Assembly: GCA_030950365.1 (NCBI GenBank)
Contig: JAUZRQ010000097.1
Coordinates: 1 to 60,114, forward strand
DNA length: 60,114 nt
Reading direction: 5' to 3'
From: Candidatus Zhuqueibacterota bacterium
GTDB taxonomy: Bacteria > Zhuqueibacterota > Zhuqueibacteria > Zhuqueibacterales > Geothermadaptataceae
The notes under the pieces are model-generated. The model had not been told where the DNA came from, made no database searches, and saw only the letters and a list, made by a program, of their open reading frames with translations. Both the position numbers and the translations under genes were made by a program. Shown piece by piece: positions 42,716-49,091 of this stretch. Every line of letters begins with the position of its first letter. Within the stretch, counting starts at the first letter, position 1.

Positions 42716-43783
42716 CTACCCCTCTCCCCCACCGCTGAGGACCACGCGCTTGTCGTGGGCGTGGGCTTCAGCGATTTCACGGGAAATGACGCCCTGTTTT
42801 AGCAGCCTTGCCAGCGCCATGTCGATGGTCTGCATGCCGTATTGCGCGCCGGTCTGGATGACGGAGTGGATTTGATGCGATTTCTCCTCGCGAATCAAGT
42901 TGCGGATGGCGTTGGTGGCAATCATGATCTCATGCACGGCTACCCGGCCGCGGCCATCGGCGCGGGGGAGCAGCCGCTGCGCCACGATGCCCATCACCGC
43001 ATTGGCGAACATGGCGCGCACCTGCCGCTGCTGCTCAGGCGGGAACACATCCACAATGCGGTTCACCGTTTCTGCCGCGTTCATGGTATGCAGGGTGGCA
43101 AACACCAGATGCCCGGTCTCCGCTGCGGTGAGCGCCAGCGAAATTGTTTCCAGATCACGCATTTCACCCACCAGAATTACATCCGGGTCCTCACGCAGGG
43201 CCGCCCGCAGGGCATTGGCAAACGATTGCGTGTGCTCGCCTAACTCGCGCTGGTTGATCAGACAGTTCTTCGGCGTGTGCACGTATTCGATGGGATCTTC
43301 AATGGTCAGAATATGGTCGCGGCGCTCGCGGTTGATCAAATCCAGCATGGCGGCCAGGGTGGTGGATTTTCCCGATCCGGTCGGGCCTGTCACCAGAACA
43401 ATACCCTTGTTCTGCCGCGCCAGGGTGTACAACCCCGGAGGGCACCCTAGCTCCTCAAGGCTGCGCACCCGGTCCGGGATCACCCGGAACGCAATAGCCA
43501 GACCGCGCAACTGGCAGTAAATGTTGGTTCGAAACCGCGCCACGCCGGCGATGGCATAGGCAAAATCCAGTTCTTGATACTGCGCAAAATGCTTTTTTTG
43601 CTTCTCGTTCAGAATCTGCGCGATCAGATGCTCCAAGGCTTCTCTTTTAACCGGCGCGGTGTCCAGCCGCCGTAGGGTGCCGTGAATGCGCAACATGGGC
43701 GCCAACCCCGCGGACAGATGGATGTCCGAGGCCTCCTTTTCCACCGCATAACTGAGCAACCGGTCCAATTCCTGTCGCGTCAT
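42716..43783 (-). CDS. pilT: Type IV pilus retraction ATPase PilT
   Basis: The product is 355 residues from ATG 43783 (AGGTAGGCGGA upstream). Motifs: ASDIHLSAGLAPMLRIHGTL at the N-terminus, Walker A GPTGSGKST (133-141), Asp box LTIEDPIEYVH, Walker B DPDVILVGEMRD, His box GHLVFATLHT, and the PilT-specific AIRNLIRE near 290. PilT hexamers depolymerise pilin and retract the pilus, driving twitching and DNA uptake. It follows pilQ by 11 bp. The extension ATPase PilB and the pilins are outside the window. Confidence 0.97.
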   Translation of the reverse strand: MTRQELDRLLSYAVEKEASDIHLSAGLAPMLRIHGTLRRLDTAPVKREALEHLIAQILNEKQKKHFAQYQELDFAYAIAGVARFRTNIYCQLRGLAIAFRVIPDRVRSLEELGCPPGLYTLARQNKGIVLVTGPTGSGKSTTLAAMLDLINRERRDHILTIEDPIEYVHTPKNCLINQRELGEHTQSFANALRAALREDPDVILVGEMRDLETISLALTAAETGHLVFATLHTMNAAETVNRIVDVFPPEQQRQVRAMFANAVMGIVAQRLLPRADGRGRVAVHEIMIATNAIRNLIREEKSHQIHSVIQTGAQYGMQTIDMALARLLKQGVISREIAEAHAHDKRVVLSGGGEG

Positions 43784-43794
43784 TCCGCCTACCT

Positions 43795-45519
43795 TTACTG
43801 CTGCACGATCTTGGGAGTGATGAATATCAATAGATCGGTCTGTTGCTTTTGCACCACCTGATTGCGGAACAGATGACCGAGCAGCGGGATGCTGCCGAGC
43901 AGCCACACCTTATCCACCCGCACCACGGTTTGTTCTTTAATCATTCCGCCAATAACGATGGTATCTCCATTGCGCACTTTAACTACGGTATCGACTTCCC
44001 GGCGCGAGGTGATCGGCGCGGTATTGCGATCTACCGTCACCTGGCCGGTAATCTCCTCGATGATCGGATTCACGTACATGGTGATGGTATTGGCATCCAC
44101 CACGTGCGGAATCACCCGCAGGGTGATATTGACATCTTTGTAGCTAAAGGTGACGATATCACCCTGCCCGCCGACGCCACGGGTGATTTGCGGAATCGGC
44201 ACGTTGGTGCCCACGGAAATATCCGACGGCTCGTTGTCCATGGCCAGGATGCGCGGATTGGACAGCAGCCGGCTGTTCATCCGGGTTTTGAGAAAGTTTA
44301 GCACGGCATTGAACTGCGATGTATTGAGGGTTCCGAACATGATGCCGCCGCCCTTTTCGAGATCGGTACGGGTGGAATAGCGATACACGGTGCCGCCTTC
44401 GAACACGATCTCGTTGAACAATTGCGCCGAAAGCGCTTTGGACCAGTCGATGCCGATGTTGGTGTCGTGTTGCGGGGCGGTTTCGATGAGCCGCGCCTCG
44501 ATCATGATTTGCGGCACCGGCACATCCAGCTCCCGCACCAGCGCATCGATGGCGCGCAAATTGGTCGGATAGTCGGTCACCAGGAGTACGCTGGAGCGCA
44601 ACCAGTATTTACGTTCACGCTGTGGCGCCTGCTTTTTATTGACATCGTAAATGTCATCCCGGTTATGAAAACTGGCTGTGAGGACGCTAATTTTACCATC
44701 GCGGGACTTAAGATCCTCGATCGCCTTTTTCAAGTTGTGCGCGTCGATGTATTTTAGCCGGTACACACGTGTTTCCATCTGCGCAATGTTGAAACCGCCT
44801 GGCATGGGGTTGACCAGCACCACGCCGTTTTCGATGCGGTAGGTGTAGCCATTGGCCCGCAGGATGCTTTCCAAGGCCTGTTCGATGGTGACATTTTTCA
44901 GCGTCACGGTGATTTTACCTTTTACCGAATCGCCGGCGACGATATTGAAACCGTTTTGCCGGGCCAGCATGCGTAACACATTGCCGATCTCGGCATCGCG
45001 AAAATCCACACTGATGCGCGTACCGTTGCCGAGCTTGCGTAGCAAGGCGTCATCGGGTTGGTATTTGATGGCTGCGCGTGTACTATAGCCGTTGGTTTTG
45101 AGTTCCGGCTCCTTTTCCTGAAATTGCAGCCAGATGAGCCCGCCGCTGCTGCGGATCTGATACGCTGTCTGGCCGCCCACGCGGAATTCCACGCGCACAC
45201 CGCCGAACCCCTCATTCCAGGGTTGCAGCCGCACCCGGTGTCGGATGCCAGGGTCAACAAGTAGGGCGGTGTTTTGTGGCATGCGCACGTTTTCCAGAAT
45301 GACCACCACCGCCGGCGGTTCGTCCTGAAAATAATGCGCGTAGCGCGCCTCACCGGTGCACAGGATTTCAAACCGCATGCCGGTGGGAGCTTCGCGCGCC
45401 TGGATCATCATCAGGCGCGGTGCCTGGGCAGCGGCTTGCGCCGGCAATAGCAATCCAGCCAGTAACAGCCAGTTACTGAATCGAGTTCGGAACGATCGGT
45501 ACATGCGTCCTATCTTCAT
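43795..45519 (-). CDS. pilQ: Type IV pilus secretin PilQ
   Basis: The product is 574 residues, with a signal peptide ending near AAAQA. An AMIN-like domain lies at about 35-130 (PPAVVVILENVRMPQNTALL). N-terminal secretin domains follow (ISVDFRDAEIGNVLRMLARQ; YRLKYIDAHNLKKAIEDLKS). The secretin gate domain contains VPQIMIEARLIET, then RLLSNPRILAMDNEPSDISV and IVIGGMIKEQ, ending LLIFITPKIVQQ. It forms the outer-membrane pore for the pilus. The frame begins inside pilP; ATG 45504 is an alternative start with AGGA close upstream. Confidence 0.97.
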   Translation of the reverse strand: MKIGRMYRSFRTRFSNWLLLAGLLLPAQAAAQAPRLMMIQAREAPTGMRFEILCTGEARYAHYFQDEPPAVVVILENVRMPQNTALLVDPGIRHRVRLQPWNEGFGGVRVEFRVGGQTAYQIRSSGGLIWLQFQEKEPELKTNGYSTRAAIKYQPDDALLRKLGNGTRISVDFRDAEIGNVLRMLARQNGFNIVAGDSVKGKITVTLKNVTIEQALESILRANGYTYRIENGVVLVNPMPGGFNIAQMETRVYRLKYIDAHNLKKAIEDLKSRDGKISVLTASFHNRDDIYDVNKKQAPQRERKYWLRSSVLLVTDYPTNLRAIDALVRELDVPVPQIMIEARLIETAPQHDTNIGIDWSKALSAQLFNEIVFEGGTVYRYSTRTDLEKGGGIMFGTLNTSQFNAVLNFLKTRMNSRLLSNPRILAMDNEPSDISVGTNVPIPQITRGVGGQGDIVTFSYKDVNITLRVIPHVVDANTITMYVNPIIEEITGQVTVDRNTAPITSRREVDTVVKVRNGDTIVIGGMIKEQTVVRVDKVWLLGSIPLLGHLFRNQVVQKQQTDLLIFITPKIVQQ

Positions 45520-45997
45520 TAAGGTTTTCTTCTGGCTCCAGATACAGGGTTAGCAGTTCCCCTTTGCGTCGTGCGATTACCCGATCCGAATACACCTGTA
45601 GCAGTTCGAAATCGCCGCTGCGTTCTCCCGGTCGCATAATGCGGTCACCGATCAGGACCCAGGCCTGTCTACCCTTCCAGGCAATGCCCTTGAGGCGCAG
45701 GTCCAGGGTATCGCGCAACGAATCGGCATAAAATGCGATGGCCCCGGCAAAGGGATTCCGTCCCCAGGTCTCGTACGTCACCAGCGGCTGCCAGTTCTGC
45801 AGGCGCTTTTCCAGCTCCTCATTGCTGATGACCTCACCGCGAATCACAGGCCGTTTGGCGGGTTTGGCGGTTATTTTCGGCGACGGTCGCTTTGCTTTGG
45901 CCGGAGGCTGCTTCTCTGAGCACACAAACTGATTGATCACAAAAAAAATGGCGCACGATACAGCGATGATGGTGAGAATTTTCTCGCGCTTTTGCAT
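45473..45997 (-). CDS. pilP: PilP-like pilus assembly protein
   Basis: The product is 174 residues. One N-terminal membrane segment (ILTIIAVSCAIFFVINQFVC) precedes a basic Pro/Lys-rich spacer (AKRPSPKITAKPAKRPVIRG). The globular part (LRLKGIAWKGRQAWVLIGDR; LLQVYSDRVIARRKGELLTL) resembles the PilP beta fold, which links the inner-membrane PilMNO complex to PilQ. The similarity is partly positional: it lies between pilO and pilQ. It overlaps pilQ by 47 bp and starts 6 bp after pilO. Confidence 0.85.
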   Translation of the reverse strand: MQKREKILTIIAVSCAIFFVINQFVCSEKQPPAKAKRPSPKITAKPAKRPVIRGEVISNEELEKRLQNWQPLVTYETWGRNPFAGAIAFYADSLRDTLDLRLKGIAWKGRQAWVLIGDRIMRPGERSGDFELLQVYSDRVIARRKGELLTLYLEPEENLNEDRTHVPIVPNSIQ

Positions 45998-46003
45998 ATT
46001 CGC

Positions 46004-46594
46004 CTACCCGATGGTCCTTTCGGATTTGGCCTTTTGCCGCAAAAAAAGATTGCCGCGCACGGTGACTTCGATCAGCGGATAGCTGGCGCGCGTCACCACC
46101 ATATCCACCTGCTCGACGGAAAATAGAAACGGCTGGCGATCGAGCTGTTCTATATATCGACCGAATTGAAAAAATTCGCCACTGAGCTGAATATCCACGG
46201 GCAGGATGAGCAGCGGCGATCCATCCGTCGCGGTCTCTTCCATAAGCTGCTCGTACATGGGATAGACCGCCGAGAAACGCAGCCGGTAGCGTTCACCAAG
46301 CTTCACCAGCCGGCGGAGAATGGCCGGCACTTCTTCACGAGGATACAACCGCCGCTCGAGAGTCGAAAGCTCCTTTTCCAGCCGGGTGACCTCTGTTTTC
46401 AGTTGTTCGATCTGCGAGGCTTGCACGGTGGCGGCCTGCACCTGTCTCATCACGGATTTGATTTGGCTCTGCAACGTATCCACGCGCACCTGCTGAGGAC
46501 GGATCCACCAGGCATACCACGCCGCGACGATGGAAAACAGCGTGCCGCCGAGGATCAGGATTTGCCGAAAGCCGGGTTTTTTATGCATGCTCAT
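46004..46594 (-). CDS. pilO: Type IV pilus assembly protein PilO
   Basis: The product is 196 residues. The N-terminal helix (QILILGGTLFSIVAAWYAWW) is followed by a coiled coil (ASQIEQLKTEVTRLEKELST) and a ferredoxin-like domain (LLILPVDIQLSGEFFQFGRY, then SVEQVDMVV, then EVTVRGNLFL). This is the standard PilO plan. PilO dimerises with PilN in the inner-membrane alignment complex. Here PilN is fused to PilM upstream, and 81 bp separate the genes. Confidence 0.93.
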   Translation of the reverse strand: MSMHKKPGFRQILILGGTLFSIVAAWYAWWIRPQQVRVDTLQSQIKSVMRQVQAATVQASQIEQLKTEVTRLEKELSTLERRLYPREEVPAILRRLVKLGERYRLRFSAVYPMYEQLMEETATDGSPLLILPVDIQLSGEFFQFGRYIEQLDRQPFLFSVEQVDMVVTRASYPLIEVTVRGNLFLRQKAKSERTIG

Positions 46595-46675: not shown

Positions 46676-48946
46676 TTAATAATAACAATTAATCACAAAC
46701 GCAATGGCGCCGTTGGCTTGCGTTTCCTGTCCCACCATTTCGATGGATTGAAAATAGCCCGAATTTTTGAGCTTCAGCAGAAACTCCGCCAGATTGGAGC
46801 CTTCCAGCGCATGCGCCGGGAAGGCTATGCCACGCAGCACGATTTTCTCCACCCCGCTCTTTTGCGATTCGCCGCTTTCATCCTCCCGCATCTCCAGCGG
46901 CGCAATGGTCAACGATGTTAGCGCAATGGAGCGGGGCACCAGATTAGAAATCGCACGCAGGTGATGCACCGCATTGGGGTTTACAAAAATCTTGGATTTA
47001 TACAGATTGAGCTTCTGCAGCAGTTGATCCTGCTGCGTCTTTAGCCGCATGAATTCCTGCCGCACCGGCTGCATTTTGACATAGCGCGTCTGCAGGTGGC
47101 TCAGTTCCGCCGTAATTTGTTGCATTTTCAGCGTCAAAAAGGCCGTGGACATGCCCAGCCCGAGCACCACCACCAGCGCCAGATACCGCAGCGCTTTTTT
47201 GATTTTGTGCAGCCGGTGCATGCCCTGCAATTCGACCGGCAGCAGATTCATGCCGCCGGATAAATCCAGCGCCAGGCCAACGGCCACGGTGAACCGCGGC
47301 GCGCAGGTGGCCAATTCTGCAAACGCCTCCCACTTTTTGATTCCTGCCATTTGAAATGGATTCAGCGGCTCCACCGATTCATTCAACATTTCGGCCAGCC
47401 AACGCTGCAAGTTTGGCACGCAAGCCCCCCCGCCACTTATGAAGATACGATCGATGCCATCGACCTTGAATTTTTCGCGGTAGTAGTCAATGGACCGTCG
47501 GATTTCGCTTACCAGCCGCTCCAGTACTGGCCGCAAGTTGATGCTCAGCTCCGACAGCTTGATGCCTTTGACGATGGTTTCCTCGGCCTCCCCTCGCGGA
47601 AGACCATACGTTTCCCACAAGGTCACGGCCTCATCAAGCGAAAGTTGCGGCAGGTCGAGGTCATAGAACATGGCATTGCTGATGGCCTCGATAAAATCCT
47701 TGCTGGATGTGGTGATTTCGCGGTGAAAATCGAGCACGCCCTGATTCACGAACACCAGATGCGATCGCCGCGCGCCGATTTCGATCACCAGCACGCGCTG
47801 GTTCTGCAACGTTTTGTCGCGGTGCACCACATTCCAAATGGCCACCGGCACGGCCGTGAGCTTGGCCGGTAGCACTCCCAGTCGCTGATAAAGTTGCAAA
47901 TGCTCGGCTACCAGTTGTGACGGTGCCACCACCGTACCGACTTTCAGTTTTTCTGATCGCCCCTCTTTCGCAATTGCCAGAAGCTCATAGCCCAGAGCCG
48001 CCGTTTCAATATCATACGGCAAGTCTTTGCGCACCGCCCATGGTACCGCTTCGGCAAGCTCCTTTTTGGAAATTTTAGGCAACATCAATTGCCGATAAAT
48101 CACTTCGAGACCGGTCAGGGCGGAGGTGATGTAATCATGCTGTCGAAATTTGTTATTAAGAACGGACAGAACCTGGGACTGCCGCTTTTCAAACCGCTCA
48201 GCTTCAGGCAGCTCTTCGGATATTGGGTTAAAACGGTGGTAGGAATAGCCAGTCAAGCTAAAACCCGCCGCCCCCTTGTGCAAGTTTACAGTCTTCAGGC
48301 TCTGTGTGCCGATGTCCACGCCGATAAACGCATGCCCCAGCATGGAGGTCCAAAATTTTTTCCAGGCCGGGGTATCGTCTTTGTTTTTCTGTGTATAATG
48401 AAATGGCTCGCTTACGGGGTGGTCACCGCTGGATGCTTCCTCCGTACCGTGTTGCGTAACCTCCGTCGATAAATTCTGCAGTGTTTCCGGGGCTGTCTTC
48501 AGTCTCTGATCGGCCAGCGTCTCCACCTCCCGCTCAGGCGCCGGCACGGCTATCTTGATGGGAGGGGCAACCGGCTCCGACGATTCGATCCCGAGGCGTG
48601 GTTCATCATAAGAGAGATGCTGTTTTTCTGCCGCAACCAAGGACTCGGTTAGTGACTCCGACTTGTCAGATAACACAAAATCATCCCAAATCCTGTTTAG
48701 GTCCAGGGCTACCGAATCAGCCTGTGGCAAAACGGTTTCTTCCGCGTCTGCGGCTAATGCCGCTGGCTGCGGATCGCCGGTTTCTTCTGCACCGTCTCGG
48801 TATAAATAGGCCTGGATATGCAGTAAATCGGGATAGTCGTGCATATCAAACGGTTGGCTCGGCGCCTTTTCAGAGGCACGGCGCCCTTCGCGCGCTTGTA
48901 GCAAAAAATCCAGGTCTTCTTTGAATTCTTCTAAAACGTTTTTCAT
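46676..48946 (-). CDS. PilM-PilN fusion pilus assembly protein
   Basis: The product is 756 residues from ATG 48946; a GTG nine bases upstream is possible. Residues 1-195 form a low-complexity, acidic extension. Residues 205-545 are PilM, an actin-like ATP-binding protein: FIGVDIGTQSLKTVNLHKG, VPWAVRKDLPYDIETAALGY, RIFISGGGACVPNLQRWLAE. At 566 the PilN start MNLLPVE appears directly, followed by a helix (ALRYLALVVVLGLGMSTAFL), a coiled coil, and the PilN domain with VHHLRAISNLVPRSIALTSL. In most bacteria these are two genes, and the PilN INLLP tail docks into PilM; here the interaction is covalent. Confidence 0.95.
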   Translation of the reverse strand: MKNVLEEFKEDLDFLLQAREGRRASEKAPSQPFDMHDYPDLLHIQAYLYRDGAEETGDPQPAALAADAEETVLPQADSVALDLNRIWDDFVLSDKSESLTESLVAAEKQHLSYDEPRLGIESSEPVAPPIKIAVPAPEREVETLADQRLKTAPETLQNLSTEVTQHGTEEASSGDHPVSEPFHYTQKNKDDTPAWKKFWTSMLGHAFIGVDIGTQSLKTVNLHKGAAGFSLTGYSYHRFNPISEELPEAERFEKRQSQVLSVLNNKFRQHDYITSALTGLEVIYRQLMLPKISKKELAEAVPWAVRKDLPYDIETAALGYELLAIAKEGRSEKLKVGTVVAPSQLVAEHLQLYQRLGVLPAKLTAVPVAIWNVVHRDKTLQNQRVLVIEIGARRSHLVFVNQGVLDFHREITTSSKDFIEAISNAMFYDLDLPQLSLDEAVTLWETYGLPRGEAEETIVKGIKLSELSINLRPVLERLVSEIRRSIDYYREKFKVDGIDRIFISGGGACVPNLQRWLAEMLNESVEPLNPFQMAGIKKWEAFAELATCAPRFTVAVGLALDLSGGMNLLPVELQGMHRLHKIKKALRYLALVVVLGLGMSTAFLTLKMQQITAELSHLQTRYVKMQPVRQEFMRLKTQQDQLLQKLNLYKSKIFVNPNAVHHLRAISNLVPRSIALTSLTIAPLEMREDESGESQKSGVEKIVLRGIAFPAHALEGSNLAEFLLKLKNSGYFQSIEMVGQETQANGAIAFVINCYY

Positions 48947-49091
48947 ATGGGACACAGTGGTTTTTCGCGGTTGCGGTCAACTACCCATTCGCCCCGTATG
49001 CTGGCGGTGCGATCTATCCCGCCCCTTTGTATCACCGCCGAAATTGCAGTGATAATCAGGAACTTAAAATAAACAGGGAGTTAAGGTCTAA

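Follow-up and report, generated by a model that had tools for sequence, protein, structure and literature searches.

The window, a stretch of 60,114 nucleotides from contig JAUZRQ010000097.1 of a Candidatus Zhuqueibacterota bacterium (a Calditrichota/KSB1 genome), carries an operon in the order pilMN-O-P-Q-T, and all features of the window described here lie on its minus strand. The operon is headed by the gene pilMN (46676..48946), for which the list of open reading frames and the translation reveal a single, uninterrupted frame from the ATG at 48946 to the stop at 46676, encoding 756 amino acids. A GTG at 48955 would yield 759 amino acids, and the ATG is preferred in view of the relatives, including the nearest one (G001, loci L005 and L028), which begin at an ATG matching 48946. 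Along the encoded chain, an acidic extension of about 200 residues is followed by an actin-like PilM domain, a fixed short junction and a PilN part starting with NLLP. The PilM domain (47267..48322) was matched by Pfam PilM_2 (PF11104) over residues 212-563 (E 2.3e-23, 83.1 bits, cut-off 27), and the type IV pilus PilM model TIGR01175 scored 133.6 bits, just above its cut-off of 133. Directly past the last PilM helix, with few residues between, lies the peptide MNLLPVE (47251-47231), corresponding to the PilM-binding N-terminus of PilN, followed by a probable transmembrane helix (47129..47188), a hydrophobic stretch read by eye inside a predicted helix of residues 574-653, and by the periplasmic domain of PilN (46685..46966; PF05137, residues 664-757, E 3.3e-5, 24.3 bits, cut-off 22.8). 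Both halves score above the cut-offs of their models in one chain with an NLLP-like N-terminus to its PilN part, as expected for PilM, for PilN and for a fusion of the two.

The domain order singled out in the initial annotation recurs in an extended set of 22 proteins, that of the window included, from 22 genomes and six families, with NLLP or NLMP at the same place behind PilM in every member. The frame is open throughout in 21 of the 22, and in the nearest relative it is open across the junction equivalent to that of the window, where neither a stop nor a frameshift occurs. PilM_2 was detected at an E-value of 0.01 in all 15 members of alignment A1, and Pfam PilN at the same threshold in only 10 of the 15. 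A missed stop near 47230-47260, named in the initial annotation as the event that would split the gene, is unsupported in the assembled data, as is a frameshift at the junction, with 21 of 22 members open throughout and the sole stop located inside PilM. This stop is an in-frame TAA in the extended PilMN of genome G004 (L008/L031), away from the junction, and represents either an assembly error or a pseudogene. Production of a separate PilN by conserved internal reinitiation was likewise rejected: just 2/22 members have ATG as the codon at the junction, indicating that a separate PilN made from within the gene is not conserved, and a simple Shine-Dalgarno pattern matched no row.

A predicted structure obtained with AlphaFold2 from 12 sequences has a mean pLDDT of 70.7, with PilM mostly at 85-95 and PilN lower. 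When the PilM part of the model (residues 206-574 only) was used in a fold search, it aligned with the Thermus thermophilus PilM-PilN structure 2YCH (Z 33.8, rmsd 2.8, 321 aligned residues) and with chain B of 5EOU, the Pseudomonas aeruginosa PilM:PilN1-12 structure (Z 33.1, rmsd 3.1, 332 aligned). The latter alignment extends up to model residue 574, so that its last aligned residue lies past NLLP. In both structures the PilM fold is accompanied by a PilN peptide, as in the window protein. A single chain of the 5EOU entry bears both names, PilM and PilN, apparently owing to an engineered link, whereas the link in the window is natural. The natural pilMN fusion is real. The proposal that PilM and PilN form one protein is confirmed by the two Pfam domains in a single open frame and by the open frames of the relatives, and the further proposal that their contact has become covalent gains support from the domain order, the conserved NLLP and the match of the model to 2YCH and 5EOU.

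Downstream of pilMN, the operon continues with pilO (46004..46594; PF04350, 46.5 bits, cut-off 22), a pilP/gspC-like gene (45473..45997) named from its position and its conservation in relatives, with a T2SSC score of 15.3 bits under the cut-off of 27, a secretin gene with AMIN and STN domains (43795..45519; Secretin, PF00263, 149.6 bits; AMIN, 24.2 bits) and the retraction ATPase gene pilT (42716..43906; TIGR01420, 491.7 bits, cut-off 319.1), for which the listed GTG is probably upstream of the real start. The PilO, secretin, AMIN and PilT components of a type IVa machine are thus all over their cut-offs. The secretin is named PilQ-type only, since PilQ (TIGR02515) is its best NCBIfam model at 240.7 bits, below the cut-off of 284.35, with GspD at 225.5 bits, below 351.35. 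In 18 of the 22 extended loci pilT follows downstream of pilMN, and the remaining four loci or contigs end before reaching that position. It is very improbable that the protein is instead GspL of a type II secretion system (T2SS) and no pilus protein; GspL shares the PilM-PilN fusion architecture, yet the T2SSL model (PF05134) scores 13.4 bits, short of its cut-off of 25.5, which led to rejection of this identity, pilT sits in the pilMN operon, and the same genome encodes a GspL-like fusion elsewhere, together with prepilin-like genes on contig C49. The interpretation favoured here, with reasonable though not high confidence, is that the window protein is an inner-membrane ring protein of the type IVa pilus, uniting PilM and PilN in one chain and bearing a tether with a docking peptide.

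The fusion is not unusual, as GspL/PulL and published type IVa pilus fusions share the architecture and long PilM frames are found across the phylum. According to excerpts of the literature, GspL/PulL/EpsL likewise combine a PilM-like cytoplasmic and a PilN-like periplasmic domain in one chain; unlike these, the window protein is accompanied by pilT and a PilQ-like secretin, matches the PilM and PilN models rather than T2SSL, and carries a motif-bearing tether. Fused pilM-pilN has been described in the type IVa pili of Clostridioides difficile (PMC6916266), and in the Campylobacterota the two genes are fused in most type IV pilus clusters (PMC11870540, a preprint); the excerpts of these two sources do not mention an N-terminal extension, and it is by these descriptions only that both fusions are set apart from that of the window. 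The PilM-like Amuc_1101 family (NF045709, 608 positions) aligns with window residues 210-654, comprising PilM and the first part of PilN, and the match begins at profile position 7, indicating that no long extension precedes PilM in that family; the window protein scores 121 bits against this model, far under its cut-off of 650. While the fusion was already known, the novelty lies in the extension, with its conserved docking-like peptide on a predicted-disordered tether. No description of an extended PilM or of a CheY-docking PilM was found in the excerpts provided by one open-licence library.

Of 82 genomes of the phylum that were searched, 79 contain PilM_2, both in numerous long frames (530-995 amino acids) and in single-domain ones of about 320-370. 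The fused PilM-PilN genes examined are of three kinds. Type A fusions have the extended N-terminus and the operon pilMN-O-P-Q-T. Type B fusions, of which the window's genome has one on C49, are accompanied by prepilin-like genes in operons resembling those of a T2SS. Type C fusions are short and belong to operons with a gene for an Ig-repeat protein and pilQ; in loci that extended far enough, pilT, pilB, pilC-like or prepilin-like genes are present as well. The shorter or weaker PilM matches L022 and L024-L027 were left out of the 22 extended members, L022 being the same as L074 in the B group, and L062_2273 passed the length filter and was dropped as not PilMN, having no PilM match. The named relatives are metagenome-assembled genomes labelled candidate division KSB1, Calditrichaeota or Caldithrix, except for one record that bears the label Bacteroidetes and two given only as "bacterium". 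In a quick tree with long branches, the extended forms appear in two places and type A needs two changes, so that a single origin of the tail is not demonstrated. Several other arrangements were observed in this survey. In type C operons (L049-L051, L053-L055, L059, L069, L071, L075-L077), the interval between pilO and pilP/pilQ contains a large gene, lipoprotein-like and with Ig-like repeats recognised by eye. A 979-residue PilM-PilN fusion in a T2SS-like operon (L074, 4971-7910, genome G042) has an N-terminal part that by eye resembles an AAA+ ATPase, with a P-loop-like GPKDIGKTS and no Pfam AAA match at 0.001. The window's genome also encodes PilM_2 as a separate protein of about 322 amino acids (L058, G000:C77, 4946-5914), amid genes that by eye resemble the housekeeping genes dnaJ, grpE and coaD, and many genomes of the phylum have relatives of it measuring about 320-345 amino acids.

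The extension of the window protein (48338..48946) comprises about 203 residues, with 20% D/E and 9% K/R, in agreement with the acidic stretch of about 195 residues reported in the initial annotation, 202 residues preceding the PilM homology. Among the 22 type A proteins it ranges from 165 to 406 residues, with 18-28% D/E and 4-12% K/R, and most of it cannot be aligned between members, apart from a motif near the start. No Pfam domain was found in the extension. In the AlphaFold2 model, residues 28-196 and 198-206 have pLDDT values below 50, indicating predicted disorder, and an isolated helix is predicted at residues 2-30 with block means of only 55-72. When the window protein was compared with that of a congener, amino acid identity was 0.63 (dN 0.27) for residues 1-27 and 0.36 (dN 0.60) for residues 61-190, against 0.73 in PilM and 0.86 in PilN, and within the extension conservation peaks at the motif end. 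Synonymous divergence is close to saturation and, for each part of the gene, higher than non-synonymous divergence, which indicates that the entire reading frame is under protein-level constraint.

Within the predicted helix, the motif reads DLDFLL in the window protein (48899..48916) and can be written as D-[ILFV]-x-[FW]-[LIF]. It is present in 22/22 extended PilMNs, with a per-sequence shuffle chance of 0.005-0.052, a count made on related sequences, amounting to fewer than 22 independent events, with a pattern shaped on these same sequences and first noted in families f1, f4 and f7. Six sequences were fetched later: those of f16 and f17 fitted the first form of the motif (4/4), and those of f15 (2/2) required F to be allowed at position 2. 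In alignments A1 and A2 the aspartate is invariant and the F-L pair nearly so, in proteins sharing 26-40% overall identity with that of the window. The first copy is placed anywhere from residue 6 to residue 47, and some proteins contain two or three copies. The motif was found in none of 14 distinct type B and C fusion genes (15 rows, L020 and L072 being the same gene), four of which, all of type B, have long N-terminal additions of another sort. Taken alone, it occurs in 32 of 567 distinct gene-like open reading frames from 85 loci; followed by an acidic, hydrophobe-poor tail, it occurs in 22 of the 567, every one a PilMN. The suggestion in the initial annotation that the extension is unlike usual PilM and could recruit a partner is strengthened by this conserved peptide on a predicted-disordered tether, the partner itself being putative. 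It is likely that the D-phi-x-F-L peptide binds a partner.

The identity of such a partner may be approached through comparison with the flagellar switch protein FliM, whose disordered N-terminus, according to excerpts of two sources, carries the sequence LSQxEIDALL and binds CheY-P (PMC6700473, PMC9126983). As far as these excerpts describe it, FliM is likewise a ring protein displaying a short E/D-[IL]-D-x-L-L-like peptide on a disordered N-terminus. The peptides DLDFLL, DIDFLI and DLEFLL resemble the EIDALL of FliM, and 17 of the 22 extended PilMNs conform to a FliM-like pattern; unlike FliM, the window motif is without the LSQ part and has an aromatic residue in place of A, so that the match to the FliM motif is partial. 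The resemblance is one of design, not ancestry. Taking into account the likeness of DLDFLL to EIDALL and the stand-alone receivers in pilB loci, usually with a kinase, a stand-alone CheY-like receiver from the pilB locus is the leading candidate, put forward tentatively; the partner may also be PilB, PilT, a neighbouring PilM or another protein, which share the rest of the probability.

The pilB loci were examined in 19 of the 22 motif genomes (G004, G026 and G040 being left out), where a stand-alone receiver (CheY1) occurs near pilB in 17/19 and a histidine kinase in 16/19; two of the loci with misses are cut by contig ends, and G064 is without a kinase. The receivers retain their phospho-acceptor residues. 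The loci of f1, f4, f15, f16 and f17 also contain an HDOD gene, another receiver and another PilB-like gene, all lacking in f7, and since the second PilB and HDOD are absent beside pilB in that family they were rejected as universal partners. A receiver beside pilB was also discarded as a discriminating argument, considering that a different one of about 150 amino acids adjoins pilB in 7/7 motif-less type C loci. What differs is the kinase, present in 16/19 motif loci and 0/7 type C loci, a comparison that covers few lineages. In the window's genome, the regulatory pilB locus has the order HK-CheY1-HDOD-PilB-CheY2-PilB2 (L083, G000:C49, 7057-14032). The second PilB of family f1 keeps MshEN and has a degenerate ATPase domain (T2SSE 21.7 bits in the window's genome, below the cut-off), making it a possible pseudo-ATPase.

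The same loci bear on whether the motif could instead recruit or regulate a pilus motor (PilB, the paralogue PilB2 encoded in tandem with it, or PilT), adding a tether to the PilM-PilB contact already known. This is possible, though we do not consider it probable. PilM docks the assembly ATPase in other type IVa pili, and in Thermus, according to an excerpt of the study, PilMN stimulates the ATPase PilF, PilM or PilN alone being without effect (PMC6325625); moreover, a second PilB-like gene adjoins pilB in five of the families, and pilT shares the pilMN operon. However, family f7 has the motif with no second PilB beside pilB, and PilB and PilT are also found in the motif-less type C systems, so that they alone do not account for the tail. 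A role of the peptide as a latch, stabilising or regulating the ring by binding to PilM in its own or an adjacent subunit, is unlikely. Short peptides are bound by PilM and by the related FtsA, as the entry titles of 2YCH and 5EOU (the PilN N-terminus) and 4A2A (FtsA with an FtsZ peptide) indicate, but one PilM groove is already taken by PilN, and the confidence of the helix prediction is low.

The poor alignability of the extension and its variable length are what would be expected if it were a passive spacer or a fast-evolving, functionless tail, the motif then reflecting an effect on translation start or stability. Several observations make this quite improbable: the aspartate remains invariant and F-L near-invariant at the low overall identities of these proteins, the first copy stands at varying distances from the start, and the motif is absent from the other fusions, long N-terminal additions among them.

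Under the favoured interpretation of the protein as a pilus ring component with a docking-peptide tether, the fusion would anchor each PilM permanently to its own PilN stalk, and the covalent PilMN may fix the active, PilF-stimulating form known from Thermus. A flexible acidic tether would hang from each PilM with the short helical docking peptide near its tip, and the PilM ring would then display many peptides around the socket of the ATPase, keeping a cytoplasmic partner near. A more specific proposal, which the analogy with FliM suggests and which we regard as rather doubtful, is that the tail serves as a FliM-like antenna on the stator ring of the type IVa pilus, where phosphorylated CheY-like receivers would dock on the D-phi-x-F-L peptides displayed by the PilM ring, switching extension or retraction at the machine itself. 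These receivers would come from the HK-CheY1-HDOD-PilB-CheY2 locus and act like CheY-P at the flagellar switch. To our knowledge, it is poorly understood for most bacteria how signals reach the type IVa pilus motor, and the excerpts of literature available describe inputs that act via PilB cofactors or polar regulators. A docking peptide within the PilM-PilN ring protein, if confirmed, would constitute a direct point of signal input, short enough for testing with synthetic peptides, and the natural fusion, with its PilM:PilN ratio fixed at 1:1, offers a unit for structural study of the ring. Beyond the motif, the extension has another patch that is conserved within the genus (48797-48841, minus strand); it reads HDYPDLLHIQAYLYR in the window and HDFPDLLHIQSYLYR in the congener and is perhaps a second docking site.
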